From NCBI GenBank assembly GCA_021826035.1, contig JAKBBE010000135.1:1-7230 (forward strand): a stretch of 7,230 nt of DNA. The letters are read 5' to 3'. The notes under the pieces were generated by a model. The model was not told where the DNA came from. It was given only the letters and a program-made list of their open reading frames with translations, and made no database searches. This stretch comes from Pseudomonadota bacterium. Its GTDB lineage: Bacteria; Pseudomonadota; Gammaproteobacteria; Steroidobacterales; Steroidobacteraceae. Positions 1 to 7,230 of this stretch are shown piece by piece; the stretch's first letter is position 1, and every line of letters starts with the position of its first letter. The position numbers were made by a program, and so were the translations under genes.

Positions 1-238
1 CCAATTCGCCGAGCGGCACGTAGGCGGTGCGCCGGACGCTGCCCGCGGCGGCGCAGATCGCCTGCAGCAGATGCGTCTTGCCCGCCCCCGCGGGGCCGCA
101 GAACCAGCTGACCCCGGGCTCCCCGAGTGCCGCGCGGCGCGCATGTTCGAGCGCCTCGGCGTTGCGCGCCGGCAGGAAGCTCTCGAACACGGCGCGATCG
201 GCCAGGCGTACTCCGAGCGGCAGCTGCTGCATCGTCAT
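1..238 (-). CDS. hda: DnaA regulatory inactivator Hda, 5' part (3' end beyond window)
   Basis: Only the first 79 codons are present; the gene runs off the left edge. Hda is a DnaA-like AAA+ protein that, with the DNA-loaded beta clamp, stimulates hydrolysis of ATP bound to DnaA after initiation. Seen here: a short N-terminus with Q5-L6-P7-L8, matching the clamp-binding QL-type motif of Hda proteins, then the typical GVRLADRAVFESF stretch and a Walker A motif GPAGAGKT at residues 48-55. The start at 238 gives the usual short leader before QLPLGVRL; a second ATG at 232 is two codons further in and cannot be excluded. The stop of the upstream phosphatidyltransferase gene is one codon before this start (TGA-ACC-ATG) and no clear Shine-Dalgarno is visible, so translational coupling is likely. 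The Hda identity, rather than DnaA, rests on the short N-terminus; DnaA has a long domain ahead of Walker A. Confidence 0.9.
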   Translation of the reverse strand, partial: MTMQQLPLGVRLADRAVFESFLPARNAEALEHARRAALGEPGVSWFCGPAGAGKTHLLQAICAAAGSVRRTAYVPLGEL

Positions 239-241
239 GGT

Positions 242-793
242 TCAGGCCGCCCGCTGCGCAGCGTTCCACGCACGGCGCGTGAAGGTCGCCCCATAGTCAA
301 AGCCCGACAGTGCCGTGGTGAAGAACACAATGAGCGCAAACGCACGCAGCTCGCCGGCAATCGGCAGACGCGAGGCGGCCACTAGCATCACACTGGCGAG
401 GTACAGCAGCTGCGCGGCGGTGTTGATCTTGCTGATCACCGTCGGGCGGCCGCGCAGCGGGCCGAACCAGACCCGATAGATGAGCGCCCCGAGGGCGATC
501 ATCACGTCGCGGGCCACGGCGGCGGCGGTCACCCACCACGGGACGAGGCCGAGCCAGGCCGACTCGACGAAGACCACGACCAACAGCAGCTTGTCGGCCG
601 CCGGATCGAGTACCTTGCCGAGTTCCGAGACCCAGTTGAAGCGCTTGGCGAGAAACCCGTCGAGACCGTCGGAGACCGCCGCGACCACGAACAGTGCCAG
701 GGCCAGCTCGTACCGATGCGCGTGCAACGCACCGGCCACCGGCCAGATCAACGCCAGCCGGATCAGACAGATCAGGTTGGGTATGTGGCGCAC
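242..793 (-). CDS. CDP-alcohol phosphatidyltransferase family membrane protein
   Basis: A 183-residue integral membrane enzyme of the CDP-alcohol phosphatidyltransferase family, which transfers a phosphatidyl group from CDP-diacylglycerol to an alcohol acceptor. The family signature is present: D42-x2-D45-G46-x2-A49-K50, then G59-x3-D63-x3-D67. These aspartates bind the metal and the CDP moiety. The usual Arg after the Ala is Lys50, with Arg51 next to it. About five or six hydrophobic segments are visible, near residues 5-22, 30-41, 68-84, 86-106, 125-141 and 150-163. The length fits PgsA (glycerol-3-phosphate acceptor), but the acceptor cannot be told from the sequence, and many gammaproteobacteria have a separate pgsA, so no symbol is given. 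The start is GTG at 793, two codons after the DUF2066 stop in the same frame. The MRHIPNLICLIRLAL beginning matches the family, and no other start fits. No Shine-Dalgarno is visible, so it is probably translated by coupling. Confidence 0.88.
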   Translation of the reverse strand: MRHIPNLICLIRLALIWPVAGALHAHRYELALALFVVAAVSDGLDGFLAKRFNWVSELGKVLDPAADKLLLVVVFVESAWLGLVPWWVTAAAVARDVMIALGALIYRVWFGPLRGRPTVISKINTAAQLLYLASVMLVAASRLPIAGELRAFALIVFFTTALSGFDYGATFTRRAWNAAQRAA

Positions 794-796
794 GGC

Positions 797-1879
797 TCAG
801 GGCGAAGGCGCCGCCGGAGAGTAAGGGGCAGGAGGCGGTGCCCCGCTCGGCGCCGCCGCGCCGAGCGGGGTCGGGGCCGGCGGCGCGGGCGGCGGCGGCA
901 CGTACCGGTAGGTCAGCACCCGGTCCGAAGCCTGCGGCTTCAAGCGCGGCGACAACGAGAGCCTCTGGCGCAGGCTCGCCGCACCACCGCGCGCCCAGAG
1001 TTCGAATTCCACGGTGCTGCCGTCGATCTCCCGGACGGTGCTCTGGTGGACCCCCGGCACCGCCGCCAGCATGGTCTCCGCCCGCGCATAGTCGGCGAGG
1101 GTCCGCAGTCCCACGATGCGAACCGTCGTCTTGGCAATCCCGCCCCCCGGGGCGGCCTGCAGCGGCGGCGCCAGCCATTCGACGGTCTGATCGATGCCCG
1201 AGGTGACCGAGCCGGTGAACTGGCGCGTGGCGAACGGGGTGACGAGTGTCCAATGCCACGTCTCGGGCGCCGGGACCGCGGCGGACGTCGAGCCCGACGA
1301 AGCCACCGCGGCCGCGGTCCTAGCCCGGCCGATGAGCAGCTGCTCGGCGCCGAAGTTGCGCGCCATCGCCAGCAGTGCCGTGGAGGGCAGCAGCGGCCCG
1401 TCCGCCGTGCGCACCGTCAACGGCACGATACTGATCGGCAGCCCGCGCCGCTCGGCCGCCTGCTGCACCGAGGCGCCGTCCGCGGCCTGCTCGAGCGCCG
1501 CCGGCGGGGGACTCAGTACGACGAGGGTGAAGGGACGATCGGCGTTCCAGAGATTGCGGCCGGCGGCGCGGATCGCCTGCTCGAGCGGGCCGGCCTGGAA
1601 GGTCACCTGCAGCGTGCCCGTCGGCCCCTGCTGATAGCCTTGCACGTACTGCGCCGCATGGGTCGTCAGCGCGGCGAGCGGCGGATCCTCGGCCGCGGCG
1701 GTATGACCCGTGGCCCGCACCAGCACGGCCTGCAGCGCCTGGGCCAGTGCGGCGGGCGTCTGCGCCGCCGTATCCACGGTGAACACCGGCACCTCGCGGC
1801 TCGCCAGGCACACCGCCGGAAGTGCTGCGCAGGTCAGCAGCGTCAACAAGCGCCCTACGCGGCGCAATGCGGTGGTCAT
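797..1879 (-). CDS. DUF2066 domain-containing secreted protein
   Basis: A 360-residue protein of the DUF2066 family, whose function is unknown. The first 26 residues form a Sec-type signal peptide: basic MTTALRR, a hydrophobic [13 protein letters not shown] core, and probable cleavage after LA at 25-26, so the protein is expected in the periplasm. The Cys at 24 is not in a convincing lipobox. Next comes the domain proper, with VPVFTVDT, a region of [15 protein letters not shown] type and later NLWNADRP. The C-terminal end, roughly the last 35 residues, is a Pro/Ala-rich low-complexity tail ([11 protein letters not shown] type), probably disordered. The frame stays open upstream to an ATG at 1945, but the start at 1879 places the signal peptide at the N-terminus and is preferred. 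The gene is divergent from purM and heads a three-gene minus-strand unit. DUF2066 beside purM is a familiar gammaproteobacterial arrangement; what links the two is not known. Confidence 0.85.
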
Positions 1880-1995
1880 GCGAACGAGCCTTCGATCCTG
1901 GTGTTTGTACCGCGCCACGGCGCCGGACGGAATGTACAATACCATATGCGAACCGGCCGCAAGGCGGCAGCCCCCAGCCTCGGAAAGACCACTGC
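1880..1995. promoter_or_regulatory. Divergent intergenic promoter region between DUF2066 gene and purM
   Basis: This 116-base spacer must hold the promoters for both the minus-strand DUF2066 unit and the plus-strand purM unit, because the genes diverge. The only AT-richer stretch is around 1931-1945. On the plus strand TACAAT at 1935-1940 is a good -10 match (5 of 6). No convincing -35 sits 16-18 bases upstream; TTGTAC at 1905-1910 is too far at 24 bases. On the minus strand TATTGT (1942-1937) is a fair -10 over the same bases. No PurR-type operator palindrome was recognised by eye. Confidence 0.4.
1982..1987 (+). promoter_or_regulatory. Ribosome binding site of purM
   Basis: GGAAAG lies 8 bases before the ATG at 1996. 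It supports this ATG over the in-frame upstream codons, as does the family-typical distance to the [15 protein letters not shown] motif. Confidence 0.6.
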
Positions 1996-3033
1996 ATGAC
2001 TGATCCGAAAGTCTCGCGCGGCATGACGTACCGCGACGCTGGCGTCGACATCGACGCCGGAGACGAGCTCGTCGAACGCATCAAACCGCATGTTGCGCGC
2101 ACACGCCGGCCGGAGGTGCTGGCCGGAGTCGGCGGGTTCGGAGCGCAGGTGGAGATCCCGGCCGGTTATCGTCGGCCGGTGCTCGTCTCGGGCACCGACG
2201 GGGTCGGCACCAAACTGCGTCTGGCCATCGACACCGGCCGGCACGACACCATCGGCATCGATCTGGTCGCCATGTGCGTCAATGACGTGCTGGTGCAGGG
2301 TGCCGAGCCGCTGTTCTTCCTCGATTACTACGCCACCGGAAAATTACGGGTCGAGGTCGCCGAGGCGGTCGTGCGCGGCATCGCCGAGGGCTGCGCGCAG
2401 GCCGGCTGCGCCCTGGTCGGCGGCGAGACCGCCGAAATGCCGGGCATGTACCACGGTGAAGATTACGACCTGGCTGGGTTCTGCGTCGGCGTGGTGGAGA
2501 AGGACGCCATCATCGACGGCCGCCACACCCGCCCGGGCGATGTGGTCATCGGCCTCACCGCCTCCGGGCCGCACTCGAACGGCTACTCGCTGATCCGTAA
2601 GCTCCTCGCCACGAGCGGCGCCGATGCACACACCATGCTCGAGGACCGACCGCTCCTCGAGCGGCTGCTCGCCCCGACGCGCATCTATGTCAAACCGCTG
2701 CTCGCGCTGGCGCGCGCGGTGCCGCTGCGCGCCATGGCCCACATCACCGGCGGCGGACTGACGGACAACATCCCGCGCGTGTTGCCCGAGGGACTGGAAG
2801 CGGTGCTCAAGCGGCGCAACTGGCCGCACGACCCGGTGTTCGACTGGCTGCAGCGCACCGGCCGGATCGAGGCGGCCGAGATGTACCGCACCTTCAACTG
2901 CGGCATCGGCATGGTGGTGGTCGTGCCGGCCGGGCACGAGACCGCCGCGCTCGAGTTCCTCGCCGCACACGGCGAGCAGGCGCAGCTGATCGGGGAGATC
3001 CGCTCCGGTACGCGTGGCGTCGTCATCGAGTGA
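1996..3033 (+). CDS. purM: Phosphoribosylformylglycinamidine cyclo-ligase (AIR synthetase)
   Basis: PurM closes the imidazole ring: FGAM plus ATP gives aminoimidazole ribonucleotide, step 5 of de novo purine synthesis, in the cytoplasm. The 345-residue product has the normal family length. Visible motifs, in order: [19 protein letters not shown] at 11-29, GVGGFGA at 44-50, the ATP-site [13 protein letters not shown] at 65-77, [20 protein letters not shown] at 89-108, [11 protein letters not shown] at 142-152 and [10 protein letters not shown] at 189-198. The C-terminal half contains [16 protein letters not shown] and FNCGIGMVV, as expected. It is the first gene of a plus-strand operon. Its stop overlaps the purN start by four bases (GTGA), indicating coupled translation of two purine enzymes. 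Nothing looks damaged. Confidence 0.98.
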
Positions 3034-3689
3034 GCGCGCGCGGTGCACTGCGGCTCGGGATCCTGATCTCCGGCCGCGGCTCGAACATGGCGGCGATCGC
3101 GCAGGACTGCCGCAGCGGGCGCCTCGGCGCCGAAGTTGCGCTCGTCCTGTCCGAGCAGCCCGCAGCCGCGGGCCTGGAGACGGCCCGCGGGCTCGGGCTG
3201 GCGACGCGCGCGATCCCGTGGCCCGGTGCGGCGCAGCGCTGCGAGTTTGAACAGGAAGCGGCTGCGGCACTCGATGCAGCCGGCATCGAACTCATCGTGC
3301 TCGCCGGGTTCATGCGCATCTTGTCGGCCGAGTTCGTGACGGCCCGCGCCGGCCGCATCCTCAACATCCATCCGTCGCTGCTGCCGAAGTTTCCCGGGCT
3401 GCATACCCACCGGCGCGTGCTCGAGGCGGGTGAACGCTCCCACGGGGCCACCGTGCATTACGTCACACCCGAACTCGATGGCGGCCCGCGCGTGCTGCAG
3501 GCGAGGATCGCCGTGCGCAGCGCCGACAGCGAGGAGAGTCTCTCAGCGCGGGTTCAGGCGACCGAGCACATCATCTACCCGAAGGCGATCGGCTGGTGCG
3601 CCGAAGGACGGCTCCAGTGGCGCGAGGAGCGCCCGTGGCTCGATGGCGCGCCGTTGCTCACCCCGGTGCTCGAGGAGTTCGATGCGTAA
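3030..3689 (+). CDS. purN: Phosphoribosylglycinamide formyltransferase (GART, folate-dependent)
   Basis: PurN transfers the formyl group of 10-formyltetrahydrofolate to GAR, giving FGAR, step 3 of purine synthesis. The 219-residue product matches the PurN family. It shows [10 protein letters not shown] at 11-20 (phosphate binding), LAGFMRIL at 91-98 (folate site), the catalytic N112-I-H114 in [13 protein letters not shown], then HGATVHYV and the catalytic Asp150 in PELDGG. By alignment from memory these correspond to Asn106, His108 and Asp144 of the E. coli enzyme. The start is a GTG at 3030 overlapping the purM stop; it places the ILISGRGSN strand at the usual distance from the N-terminus, with a short six- or seven-residue lead. 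The 3' end overlaps the next gene. Confidence 0.96.
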
Positions 3690-4425
3690 GAGAGTCTCGA
3701 TGCGCCTGCAGATCCTGCCGGCGGCGCTCGCGCTGCTCGCAGTCCTGACGCTGGCGCGCGCGAGCAGTCCGCCGCCGGCGCCGGCCGCCGTGAAGCCGCC
3801 GACCTTCCTCGCCACCTACTCGGTGGCCTGGCATGGCATCACCGCCGGGCGCTCGACGCTGACTCTCGCGCAGACCGGCCCCGACGAATACCGCTACAGC
3901 TCGGTCGATCGGGCGGGCGGACTGTTCCATCTCTTCCTGCCCCACGACATCACCCAGGAGAGCCGCTTCCGGCTGGTGAACGGCGCGGTGCAGCCGCTGA
4001 GCTTCCGTTCCCAGGGCGGCGGTCCGCCCGAGGACGTGCATTTCGACTGGACGAGCGGTCGGGTGACGGGCACCGCCAAACACAAGCAGATCGACCTGAA
4101 ACTCGAGTCCGCCACTCAGGATCCGGGCTCGGTGCAGATCGCCCTGATGCTCGGATTCCTCGCCGGCAAGCCGCCGGCGAGCTTCTGGATGCTCAACACG
4201 GACGTGATCAACCGGTTCGAGTTCGTCCGGCGCGGCGCAGCAACGCTGCACACTCCGCTCGGTGAACTGCACACCCTGCTCTACACCAGCCATCATCAGG
4301 GCGCGCGGCGCACAACCTACATGTGGCTCGCCCCGTCGCTCGATTACCTGCCGGCGCGCCTCGAGCAGCGCCGCGGTGAGGAAGTGATCTTCTCGCTCAA
4401 CATCCGCGCCTTCAAGAAACAATAA
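3682..4425 (+). CDS. DUF3108 domain-containing exported protein
   Basis: A 247-residue protein of the DUF3108 family, commonly found directly after purMN in gammaproteobacteria; its function is unknown. It begins with a signal peptide (basic MRKRVSMR, then hydrophobic LPAALALLAVLTLA, probable cleavage at ARA-SS near residue 27), followed by a short Pro/Ala linker and a beta-rich domain. Typical family features are FLATYSVAWHGITAGRS near the start of the mature part, then repeated beta strands, and YLPARLEQRRGEEV close to the C-terminus. The first ATG at 3682 overlaps the purN stop by 8 bases and has GAGGAG four bases upstream. An ATG at 3700, behind AAGAGAG, would remove six residues and is equally plausible. 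Periplasmic or outer-membrane location is inferred. Translation is probably coupled to purN. Confidence 0.87.
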   Translation: MRKRVSMRLQILPAALALLAVLTLARASSPPPAPAAVKPPTFLATYSVAWHGITAGRSTLTLAQTGPDEYRYSSVDRAGGLFHLFLPHDITQESRFRLVNGAVQPLSFRSQGGGPPEDVHFDWTSGRVTGTAKHKQIDLKLESATQDPGSVQIALMLGFLAGKPPASFWMLNTDVINRFEFVRRGAATLHTPLGELHTLLYTSHHQGARRTTYMWLAPSLDYLPARLEQRRGEEVIFSLNIRAFKKQ

Positions 4426-4462
4426 CGACCCATTGTCGGGATCGGCGAGGAGAGGCACGACG

Positions 4463-4570
4463 GTGCACGCGGTCGGAATCCTGGCCTATCGCCCCCCAGA
4501 CTTGACCCTGCCCATCACCGTTCCCCGTAGCGCGCGCACGGCGGGCCCATTCCTTCGGAGTGTTCTGTAG
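4463..4570 (+). CDS. Possible 35-residue small ORF (hypothetical)
   Basis: A GTG-initiated 35-codon ORF ending in TAG. What draws attention is the purine-rich stretch GAGGAGAGG at 4447-4455, a strong Shine-Dalgarno-like sequence seven bases before the GTG. The peptide starts MHAVGILAYRPPDLTLPI and matches nothing I recognise; it is rich in Pro, Arg and Leu, has no clear membrane segment, and lies 37 bases after the DUF3108 stop. Short ORFs like this arise by chance in high-GC DNA, and GTG starts are frequent there, so it is more likely spurious than real. Confidence 0.18.
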   Translation: MHAVGILAYRPPDLTLPITVPRSARTAGPFLRSVL

Positions 4571-4680
4571 GCGCGCGGCAATTGAAGCACAGCGAAGACA
4601 GATGTCGTCGCGATCTGAAAGCCGCGGCGCGCGCCGGCACCCGCATTGACCGCTTCTGAGCGCACCACTTCAGTAGCACA

Positions 4681-4698
4681 CCCCGAACCCCGTCGGGG
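4681..4698 (-). terminator. Hairpin 3' of dcd, weak terminator candidate
   Basis: CCCCGA and TCGGGG form a perfect 6-bp stem with a 6-base loop, 17 bases beyond the dcd stop codon. No T run follows on the minus strand, so intrinsic termination is doubtful. The position after the last gene of the unit is the main argument. Confidence 0.25.
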
Positions 4699-4715
4699 CA
4701 GGTCCGCTCCGTGCG

Positions 4716-6122
4716 TCAGGTCTTGGGCAACGTCACGCCCTTCTGCCCCTGGTACTTGCCACCCCGGTCCTTGTAGGACGTCGCGCACACCTCGTCCGAC
4801 TCGAAAAACAACATCTGGGCGACGCCTTCGTTAGCGTAGATCTTGGCAGGCAGCGGCGTGGTATTGGAAAACTCCAGCGTGACGTGCCCTTCCCACTCCG
4901 GCTCCAAGGGCGTTACGTTCACGATGATGCCGCAATTATGGACGAAGACTCCGGCGTCCAGGGCGAAGTTGCCCGCTTCGGGGACCGTCAGACAGTAAAC
5001 ATCGTGATCGCCGGACATCTCGCGGATCGCAGCGACTTTGTGATTGCGATACACGGGGGAAGCATGAAGGCGCTCAAGCGCATCCGGGAATCGACCGAAG
5101 ACCGAACGATCGTATTGCCGCGATGCCGCCGCACCCCGGTTGAAACCTGTCTCATCGTGTGCAGCGCGTACGCGATCGGCCGGGATCTCACCTCGCCGGT
5201 TGCTCCGCCTCGCCCCATCCGCCTGCGGGCGTCGACGGGAGTCATCCTCGGCAGTCCAACCGGTGTGCCGCCGCATGGGATCCGCTGCGGCCATCCCGAT
5301 CGGGTTTGTCGGCCGATGGTTCCGGGGATTGAAATCCACGGGGGAGTGATCGGTATCCACGGCTTGCGCGCAGATGCCGTGTCGGAGGAGCCACTCATCG
5401 GCCAGACGATGCGTGGCAGACATCTGCCCGTCGATCGGTTGATACACGCACTCCTCGCCGCGCACGACATCACGGTACAGCGGCATGAGTGCATCGCCCG
5501 GGCGCAGTGTCTGCGCCGCAGCCATCCGGCCATCGCGCCGCATAAACTGATGATCCGCCGTCGCATGGATGAACCGCCCGTCATCCAGCTCGATCTCGAT
5601 GAGCGAGTCGCGCCCGATGAATCGGGGTGCATCGAGCAAAGACACGATCAGCCGGCCGTTCGGTCCGATGCTGTACCCCCAGAAGGACTCGCCGCAATCA
5701 TGCCGCCGCGCCATCTCCTCGAGCGTCGCAGCGGTGCCGTCGACAAGGGCCACGCGGGTATCACCCCGGAAGCAGCGCGCGTAGGTCGATTTCCCAAGAC
5801 ACACCGTGAGCACGCTGCGCGGAATGCGGAAGTACTCGACCGTGCGCGCCAGCGCAAAGGAATTCGGCGGGATCACGCACACATCGGCCTTCAGGTCGAC
5901 GAAACTCTTCTCGTCGAAGGCTTTCGGATCGACGATGGTCGAGTTGATGTTGGTGAAAATCTTGAACTCATCCGCACAGCGAACGTCGTAGCCGTAGCTC
6001 GACGTGCCGTAGGAGACGATCTTGTGGCCATCGACGTAGCGCACCTGCTCGGCCGCAAACGGCTCGATCATGCTCTGCTCGCGCGCCATGCGCCGGATCC
6101 AATGGTCGGATTTGATGCTCAT
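4716..6122 (-). CDS. dcd: dCTP deaminase precursor interrupted by an in-frame intein
   Basis: Dcd deaminates dCTP to dUTP, the precursor of dUMP and dTTP. The ORF encodes 468 residues, but family members of this type have about 188. Residues 1-116 are an ordinary Dcd N-terminal part ([20 protein letters not shown] at 41-60, [20 protein letters not shown] at 84-103, active-site KSTYAR at 111-116). Residues 397-468 are the C-terminal part ([20 protein letters not shown], then Glu417, ending [12 protein letters not shown]). Joined, they give exactly 188 residues. The 280 residues between are an intein. By alignment from memory with E. coli Dcd, Ser112 and Arg116 correspond to Ser111 and Arg115, and Glu417 to the catalytic Glu138, so the active site is split and activity should require splicing. 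The start is ATG at 6122, with a distant AAGG 12 bases upstream. It follows mrp/apbC by 73 bases on the same strand, a common gammaproteobacterial order. No frameshift or stop interrupts the whole ORF. Confidence 0.97.
4935..5774 (-). mobile_element. Dcd intein, 280 residues, class 1, with degenerate HNH region
   Basis: This in-frame insert codes for precursor residues 117-396. Block A is [13 protein letters not shown], with the nucleophile Cys1. Block B is [10 protein letters not shown], with Thr72 and His75 (intein numbering) in the TxxH motif, followed by [11 protein letters not shown]. Block F is [15 protein letters not shown], and block G is DAGVFVHN, with penultimate His279 and terminal Asn280. 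The next residue is Cys+1, so all residues for a standard Cys1/Asn/Cys+1 splicing pathway are present. Between blocks B and F lie about 175 residues, longer than a mini-intein linker, with no LAGLIDADG motif but an HNH-like remnant. Hand counts of G+C in sample lines (58-63%) do not differ from the dcd extein (about 55%), so composition gives no sign of recent arrival. Splicing competence is inferred from motifs only. Confidence 0.95.
5265..5411 (-). other. Decayed HNH homing-endonuclease motif inside the Dcd intein
   Basis: Precursor residues 238-286 resemble the nuclease part of HNH-type inteins: [10 protein letters not shown], then [16 protein letters not shown], then [10 protein letters not shown]. 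Active relatives, as I remember them, read about HHIDFNxxNNRPxN and end in an EH-x3-H-like helix. Here the paired histidines before the aspartate are Ser260-Pro261, the NN pair is N268-H269, and the EH pair is D281-P282. Asp263, Asn265, Asn273 and His286 remain. A basic stretch follows ([16 protein letters not shown]), perhaps the old DNA-binding tail. The nuclease is probably dead; family assignment is by motif memory, not by search. Confidence 0.6.
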
Positions 6123-6195
6123 CGGCTGACACTACCTTGAATGATTGCCCGTAACGGCCGTCGGCTCGGGCCGGTTGCGCGTGCGTGTCCGGGCT

Positions 6196-7230
6196 TCAGC
6201 CCTTTTCCACTACGATCTTCGGAAATACCCCGCTGCGATCGAGCGGCCGCAGGGAGAGCGCCGCGGCGGTGCGCCGCGCCATCTGCAGGTACGCGTCCGC
6301 GCGCGCCGATTCCGGCTCGGCCGCCACGGTCGGACGGCCGCCGTCGGCTTCCTCGCGCACGCGCGCATCGAGTGGCAACTCCCCGAGCAGACGCACGCCG
6401 TACTGCTCGGCCATGCGCGCCCCGCCGCCGATCCCGAAGATGTGATCGACGTGGCCGCAGTTGGTGCACACGTACAGGCTCATGTTCTCGACGATCCCGA
6501 GCACCGGCACGGAGACCTTCTCGAACATCTTCAGCCCCTTGCGGGCGTCGGCGAGCGCAATGTCCTGAGGGGTCGTGACGATCACGGCGCCGGCGACCGG
6601 CACCTTCTGCGCCAGCGTGAGCTGGATGTCCCCGGTGCCCGGCGGCAGATCCACCACCAGGTAATCGAGTTCGCCCCATTGCGTCTGCGAGAGCAGCTGC
6701 TGCAGCGCCTGAGTCACCATCGGGCCGCGCCAGACCATGGGCTGCTCGGAGTCGACCATGAACCCGATCGACATCGCCGCCACGCCGTGGTTGCGCAGCG
6801 GCAGGATGTGCTTACCGTCCGGGGACGTCGGCTGCTCGCCGGCGAGTCCGAGCATCAGCGGCTGGCTCGGGCCGTAGATGTCCGCATCGAGCACCCCGAC
6901 GCTCGCTCCCTGGGCGGCCCAGGCGAGCGCGAGATTCGCCGCGACGGTGGACTTGCCCACTCCGCCCTTGCCCGAGGCGACCGCCACGACGTTCTTGATG
7001 CCCGCGAGCGGCTGCAGCGGCCGCTGCACGCCGTGCGGGCGGATCTGCGCCTCGATGCGAAAGTGCACCGAGGCGGAAACGCCTGCGGCCGCGACGTGCG
7101 CAGCGAGTGCGGCGGCGAGGCGCTCCTGGTACCCCCCGACCGGGAAGCCGAGGACGATGTGCGCCGCGTAGCCGTCCGGGACCGCGCTCAGCTCGCGCAG
7201 CGCCCCCGCCTCGCGCAGCGTCTGGTGCAG
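6196..7230 (-). CDS. apbC: Mrp/ApbC/NBP35-type iron-sulfur cluster carrier P-loop ATPase, 5' end beyond window
   Basis: A P-loop ATPase that carries and delivers Fe-S clusters to apoproteins in the cytoplasm. 344 residues are visible and the frame is open to the right edge. A GTG at 7068 could be taken as a start, but the upstream codons are coding: they give the end of the N-terminal DUF59/MIP18-like domain, for example IVLGFPVGGYQERLAAAL, so the gene is simply cut. Visible motifs: the deviant Walker A GKGGVGKS at visible residues 87-94, DADIYGPSQP after it, VVDLPPGTGD as the Walker B/switch region, and CTNC at 255-258, the CxxC that binds the bridging cluster between subunits. The C-terminus ends FPKIVVEKG. 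It lies upstream of dcd on the same strand, with 73 bases between. The symbol could equally be given as mrp. Confidence 0.95.
   Translation of the reverse strand: MHQTLREAGALRELSAVPDGYAAHIVLGFPVGGYQERLAAALAAHVAAAGVSASVHFRIEAQIRPHGVQRPLQPLAGIKNVVAVASGKGGVGKSTVAANLALAWAAQGASVGVLDADIYGPSQPLMLGLAGEQPTSPDGKHILPLRNHGVAAMSIGFMVDSEQPMVWRGPMVTQALQQLLSQTQWGELDYLVVDLPPGTGDIQLTLAQKVPVAGAVIVTTPQDIALADARKGLKMFEKVSVPVLGIVENMSLYVCTNCGHVDHIFGIGGGARMAEQYGVRLLGELPLDARVREEADGGRPTVAAEPESARADAYLQMARRTAAALSLRPLDRSGVFPKIVVEKG

Follow-up and report, generated by a model that had tools for sequence, protein, structure and literature searches.

How might a dcd gene of 468 codons give rise to a dCTP deaminase (Dcd) of 188 residues, and what has become of the element that interrupts it? 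The question is raised by a stretch of 7,230 nucleotides from a Pseudomonadota bacterium of the family Steroidobacteraceae (assembly GCA_021826035.1, contig JAKBBE010000135.1, positions 1 to 7,230), the whole of which is called the window here. An initial annotation made from the letters of this stretch described a 280-residue insert at 4935..5774, running from CFRGDT to VFVHN before a Cys, and its coordinates and junctions are right. It overlooked the partial deletion and the decay of the insert's endonuclease. The reading we favour, with a probability of roughly 0.93, is that dcd carries a class-1 intein that splices, has lost its endonuclease to decay and stands between a mobile intein and a mini-intein. 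Labels beginning with L denote DNA loci, P protein database sequences or clusters, and G genomes. The parts of the gene, with the basis of each in brackets, are:

4716..6122, minus strand: dcd gene with its intein, encoding a 468-residue dCTP deaminase precursor (open reading frame (ORF), PF22769 and TIGR02274)
5775..6122, minus strand: N-extein of 116 residues, ending in GKSTYAR (the relative L112 aligned to Dcd 4dhk)
4935..5774, minus strand: intein at the dcd-a site, 280 residues, CFRGDT...VFVHN, precursor residues 117-396 (Pfam and TIGR models, alignment)
5385..5774, minus strand: N-terminal Hint half, intein residues 1-130, holding C1 and the TADH of block B (retention in relatives, the ratio of nonsynonymous to synonymous substitution rates (dN/dS), predicted fold)
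4935..5057, minus strand: C-terminal Hint half, intein residues 240-280, ending in HN (DNA and protein alignments, predicted fold)
4716..4934, minus strand: C-extein of 72 residues, starting with CGIIV, and the stop codon (comparison with intein-free Dcd)

The ORF at 4716-6122 is uninterrupted by stop or frameshift throughout its 468 codons. Its residues 1-116 and 397-468 are Dcd: PF22769 matches in two stretches (E 1.1e-28), and the Dcd equivalog model TIGR02274 also matches in two stretches at 140.9 bits, above the cut-off of 92.8 for membership in Dcd. Removal of the insert restores an enzyme of 188 residues with an exact junction, as had been proposed: the intein-free relatives L112 and L011 encode an unbroken 188-residue Dcd that matches the flanks of 116 and 72 residues, with junction residues neither gained nor lost, and the alignment of L112 to the solved Dcd 4dhk is gap-free across the junction. 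The masses anticipated for precursor, intein and spliced enzyme (about 52, 31 and 21 kDa) agree with those calculated (52.4, 31.3 and 21.2 kDa). The insertion site may adjoin catalytic residues of E. coli Dcd, a point on which nothing here depends.

The insert itself was recognized by intein models, with a Hint-domain score between residues 117 and 396 as predicted. PF14890 (Intein_splicing; cut-off 35.8 bits) scored 52.9 bits (E 4.6e-14), and the models of the intein ends, TIGR01445 and TIGR01443, gave 31.2 and 23.9 bits against cut-offs of 24.5 and 15.6. The intein is predicted to adopt the Hint fold, and its predicted local distance difference test score (pLDDT) falls below 50 at model residues 146-181, inside the endonuclease remnant. 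C117 (Cys1), the penultimate His, the terminal Asn (N396) and C397 (+1) are all in place, and the block B motif T-x-x-H reads TADH at residues 188-191. Across 30 aligned dcd-a inteins, C1, the terminal Asn and C+1 are invariant, most rows having been selected by a pattern that requires the junctions, and so are the T, D and H of block B. The view that all class-1 splicing residues are visible thus stands for Cys1, T-x-x-H, the penultimate His, the Asn and C+1, and needs qualifying for block F, which has Cys and Gly. Intein models and predicted fold together support an in-frame class-1 intein inside dCTP deaminase, at a site that, judged by sequence, is a known one. The initial annotation was unsure whether it had been catalogued; it has been, in phage CL131.

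The state of the endonuclease is read from three features:

5058..5384, minus strand: endonuclease-region remnant, intein residues 131-239 (dN/dS against L008, low pLDDT)
5262..5354, minus strand: degenerate HNH motif, intein residues 141-171 (comparison with P0003)
5261..5262, minus strand: deletion scar, where 288 bp (96 codons, reference residues 172-267) are missing relative to L008 (DNA alignment; protein alignment to P0003)

The deletion was measured against L008, which has an intein of 376 residues and is the closest full-length relative available as DNA. The DNA alignment of the window to L008 has an in-frame gap of exactly 288 bp and is otherwise gap-free, and the two Hint halves are 92 and 93% identical. 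The intact HNH motif of the full-length P0003 reads THRHHIDFDRRNNRPTNLVRMAASDHIRLHN; in the window it is changed at the first His pair, at an Asn and in the region of the last His. Between the window and L008, dN/dS is 0.98 in the remnant (bootstrap 95% interval 0.58-1.92), 0.23 in the Hint halves (0.10-0.47) and 0.08 in the exteins. Full-length pairs used as controls gave 0.17 (L008-L003) and 0.18 (L008-L009) for the remnant segment. It follows from this contrast that the splicing part is under constraint and that the endonuclease remnant is in near-neutral drift. A simple Fisher test of remnant against Hint was rejected as evidence of decay: it is significant for the window (p 0.0014) and for L098 (1.6e-6), and also for the full-length control (0.001) because the endonuclease is less constrained in full-length inteins too, and we therefore relied on dN/dS values with controls. 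Microhomology at the deletion ends was also discarded, since a TGCAC pair read by eye would, in register, give a deletion of 291 bp and not 288.

Pfam HNH_3 matches the CL131 intein and has no match in the window intein, nor in the full-length L008. The HNH motif is whole in P0003 and L009 and bears a single change in L003 (Asp to Val) and in L008 (Asn to Ser). The L003 copy (L003:5349-6476, in G002, the genome that also holds L172) is a full-length intein of 376 residues, and its changed motif perhaps marks an earlier stage of decay than that of the window. The window intein lacks the intact HNH domain of a mobile HNH homing intein, with 96 codons gone, the motif changed and dN/dS at 0.98 in what is left. 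Nor is it a mini-intein, a class that is endonuclease-free and 130-200 residues long (PMC1508164), as about 109 of its 280 residues are remnant. It appears to be on the way from the one to the other.

Close relatives hold empty, full-length and differently eroded alleles; most of them are metagenome assemblies. A tree was built from dcd exteins and the mrp-like neighbouring gene, with 36 rows picked by hand from 77 exteins; five rows, L112 among them, are without the neighbouring gene. The extein table left out L126 and the truncated L014, L126 being re-added by hand, and L018 and L026 are absent from both table and tree. The window is sister to L098 (support 98/94) within a clade of four (100/100) that also holds the full-length L008 and L112, whose site is empty and whose nearest flanks match those of the window at 82-91%. 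The L098 intein has 307 residues, two deletions unlike that of the window and other motif changes. Nearer still is L001, part of JAJZDW010000017.1 from the metagenome-assembled genome (MAG) Proteobacteria bacterium isolate JA6.bin17, which is 99.0% DNA-identical to the whole window; five codons differ over dcd, with one amino-acid change (residue 348, in the endonuclease remnant). The protein cluster P0002 (six member sequences) has the same 280-residue form and differs from the window at residues 348 and 394.

On the favoured reading, dcd would be translated as a 52-kDa precursor from which the Hint domain (about 130 residues at the start of the intein and about 41 at its end) would excise itself by means of Cys1, T-x-x-H, His-Asn and Cys+1, joining GKSTYAR to CGIIV to yield an active Dcd of 21 kDa. 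We infer that the window copy splices, and because a conserved motif of the enzyme is interrupted by the intein, Dcd activity would depend on splicing and the Hint part would for that reason stay under selection. The ancestor was probably a full-length, homing intein of 376 residues with an HNH endonuclease. Once this enzyme was out of use its motif would have mutated and an in-frame deletion of 96 codons would have taken much of it, presumably in that order, leaving some 109 residues to drift; with motif and codons lost, the window copy would no longer be mobile by its own enzyme.

Several points weigh against this history. Block F of the window has Cys and Gly where the class-1 consensus is Asp and His, a consensus that is not universal; the same Cys and Gly are common to the 30 aligned dcd-a inteins and the CL131 intein. 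The AlphaFold2 model of the whole precursor is poor (pLDDT 41). L008 has Ser for the last Asn of its HNH motif and so could itself fall short of an intact reference, and its position inside the clade is weakly supported (84/42), while L112 was placed by dcd alone. The dN/dS comparison is uneven in depth, with remnant-segment dS of 0.87 and 1.32 in the control pairs against 0.22, and the value for the L098 remnant, 1.60, has a wide interval (0.83-3.85). If the window and L098 deletions are independent, as their sequences suggest, the case is carried mainly by different endpoints and motif changes.

The unusual block F and the drifting remnant would also suit an insert that no longer splices, leaving an inactive fused protein in a host that makes deoxyuridine monophosphate by another route. 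We consider this improbable: exteins and Hint halves are still constrained (dN/dS 0.08 and 0.23), the nucleophiles are kept, the gene is free of stops and frameshifts in the window, L001 and P0002, and the search of G001, the MAG nearest to the window, gave a single dcd locus. The reading frame runs intact through the remnant, and the shortened relatives L170 and L173 retain the HNH motif by pattern, which would fit an intein that is still mobile through an active, shortened endonuclease. Against such mobility stand the changed HNH residues, the 96 missing codons and a remnant dN/dS near 1, and we find it more doubtful still. Least credible of all is a full-length intein from which faulty assembly dropped the 96 codons, even though the window and most close relatives come from metagenome assemblies, for the 280-residue form recurs in L001, a separate assembly, and in P0002, and an assembly error would not explain why the sequence drifts to either side of the scar. 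The reading of a splicing intein with a decayed endonuclease is therefore retained.

How far the window is typical was judged from the wider set of inteins at its site, between GKSTYAR and C, those of 365 residues or more being classed as full-length. The window precursor as a protein query gave 4997 matches. Among the best 120 of these, 103 are at least 550 residues long and 17 are shorter, and the 114 that could be classed by pattern comprise 99 with a full-length and 15 with a shortened intein. Nearly all named matches listed are annotated as plain dCTP deaminase, as the initial annotation expected, apart from P0023 and P0027, which add 'intein/homing endonuclease'. A search of 80 genomes, G001 and its relatives, found matches in 69; by a reading of the table, dcd is uninterrupted in 46 of them, 14 have the dcd-a intein alone, one has an intein at a second site, dcd-b, alone and one has both, the remainder being four fragments and three weak matches outside dcd only. 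Within the order, dcd-a inteins occur in 27 of 396 genomes (G001 included), 24 single and three double; four are full-length (375-376 residues) and 23 shortened (190-307 residues), and 11 of the 27 measure 224-307 residues. Class-wide, a full-length intein query matched 4 of 369 genomes, again with G001; both samples were counted without kinship information. The HNH pattern missed the full-length L172 (G002), which has Val for Asp as in L003.

Lengths were tabulated for 134 of 144 intein-bearing protein rows (window, matches and loci, some of the same sequence); nine rows without the strict site-a pattern and one without a C-terminal junction were excluded. In the 22 deletion-bearing rows, intein residues 1-120 and 341-376 are always retained and 221-250 never, with retention of 96% at 121-130 and of 90-95% at 131-140 and 331-340. 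The dispensable part of the dcd-a intein would thus be roughly residues 141-330 of 376. This natural deletion series marks what an intein can lose, which is useful for small splicing tools, and the window, beside full-length, differently eroded and empty relatives, offers a stepwise view of intein reduction. In viral contigs the same junction is present in 6 of 11 confirmed loci (L212-L217), five with the HNH motif by pattern; the Dcd N-extein pattern fits one of the six, and the length obtained for the L213 intein reflects a mistaken match at the C-terminal end. Phages could ferry the mobile form between hosts.

The same loop of the enzyme is also invaded elsewhere:

L010:5334-6563 (G007): dcd-b intein, found also in L046 and L007
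L126:2705-5077 (G008): double-intein dcd, with a LAGLIDADG intein after GK and an eroded HNH intein after STYAR

The dcd-b site lies between GK and STYAR, five codons upstream of dcd-a, and holds an unrelated intein with a LAGLIDADG domain (L010 and relatives), whose best NCBIfam match, tested on P0124, is an intein-bearing replicative DNA helicase model. It is present in 13 of the 396 genomes of the order. In L126 the five residues STYAR are all that lies between two inteins, and P0124 is among the proteins with the same arrangement. Both inteins, always with STYAR, were found by a looser pattern in 126 of 145 distinct proteins (the best 120 matches of each of two protein searches); 16 of the rest have dcd-b alone and three are unclassed, and as these lists were selected by similarity to double-intein queries the counts are not a frequency. 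On doubles, the strict junction pattern finds 96 of 120 and the looser one 107. P0254 (1315 residues), a single protein cluster with six members, has three inteins of 412, 376 and 341 residues, which make up 86% of the precursor and are separated by spacers of 5 and 12 residues, the exteins amounting to 186 residues. Its third intein scores 27.1 bits, just below the Pfam Hint cut-off of 29.7, and is followed by Cys at +1; the residue is Glu in each of the 263 EP-x-WEG motifs available without an insert.

It is very likely that this conserved loop is a hotspot, where a span of 17 residues offers three or more points of insertion (slashes in GK/STYAR/C...EP/C), separately invaded by unrelated inteins (LAGLIDADG at the first site, HNH at the second), with doubles in many bacteria and one triple, and that the HNH intein is eroding stepwise from 376 to 190 residues, the window being one intermediate. 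If so, the order of splicing is a hard problem, given a middle extein of five residues, and twin and triple arrangements raise questions of interference between neighbouring inteins. An excess of twins over chance was not established (three doubles, 27 and 13 carriers, 396 genomes, p 0.051), and no link is claimed between dcd-b presence and loss of the dcd-a endonuclease, since in the order sample 20 of the 24 carriers of dcd-a alone are eroded as well. A search of open-licence literature, which did not extend to the sources of PMC6293099 for earlier dcd finds, gave no account of dcd with twin or triple inteins.

The residue before the terminal Asn is often other than His in dcd-a inteins (R 36, H 28, Q 21, K 17, S 12, G 4 and E 1 among the 119 matches listed in the first protein search). 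Lys in this position (FVKN) occurs in 55 of 96 double-intein proteins and in CL131, for which self-excision is reported (PMC6293099).

Upstream of dcd on the same strand is an mrp/apbC-like gene, and beyond dcd on the opposite strand are a DUF3108 gene, a purN-like gene with a formyl transferase domain and a purM-like gene with an AIR synthase domain, all by Pfam; L004, L005 and L011 share this gene order (ORFs read by eye). A second intein match in G001 lies in a 1080-residue ORF (L091:7-3249), putatively UvrD/PcrA helicase-like.

The closest known system is gp069 of cyanophage vB_AphaS-CL131, whose dcd intein is reported to excise itself after expression in E. coli; the same paper also mentions intein-bearing dCTP deaminases found earlier in two bacteria, of the Proteobacteria and Chloroflexi (PMC6293099). 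The window shares with CL131 the gene, the insertion point, the nucleophiles and the block F departures, and the two inteins are homologous along their length at 37% identity, so that site and splicing domain make the window a dcd-a allele of the CL131 type. They differ in that CL131 has 352 residues, a Pfam HNH_3 match and Lys before Asn, whereas the window has 280 residues, a ruined HNH and His before Asn. The full-length dcd-a inteins of Proteobacteria (about 376 residues; L008, L003, L009 and P0003) share the site of the window and retain the 96 residues it misses. In the homing cycle, as outlined in PMC1654191, endonuclease decay is predicted once an intein is fixed and the splicing part must persist, with limits also described. 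The MCM-a and MCM-d inteins of Haloferacales likewise occupy adjacent positions of a single gene (PMC10643990); in dcd the two sites are five codons apart. The fungal PRP8 inteins, like dcd-a, form an allelic series of full-length, mini and empty forms, and how a full-length intein shrinks to a mini-intein is a question posed there; unlike dcd-a, no intermediate lengths or forms with only an endonuclease remnant were detected, according to that study (PMC1508164). The dcd-a series holds forms of the kind sought, the window among them, and if the hotspot and its erosion are rightly read it would supply the intermediates absent from the PRP8 study.
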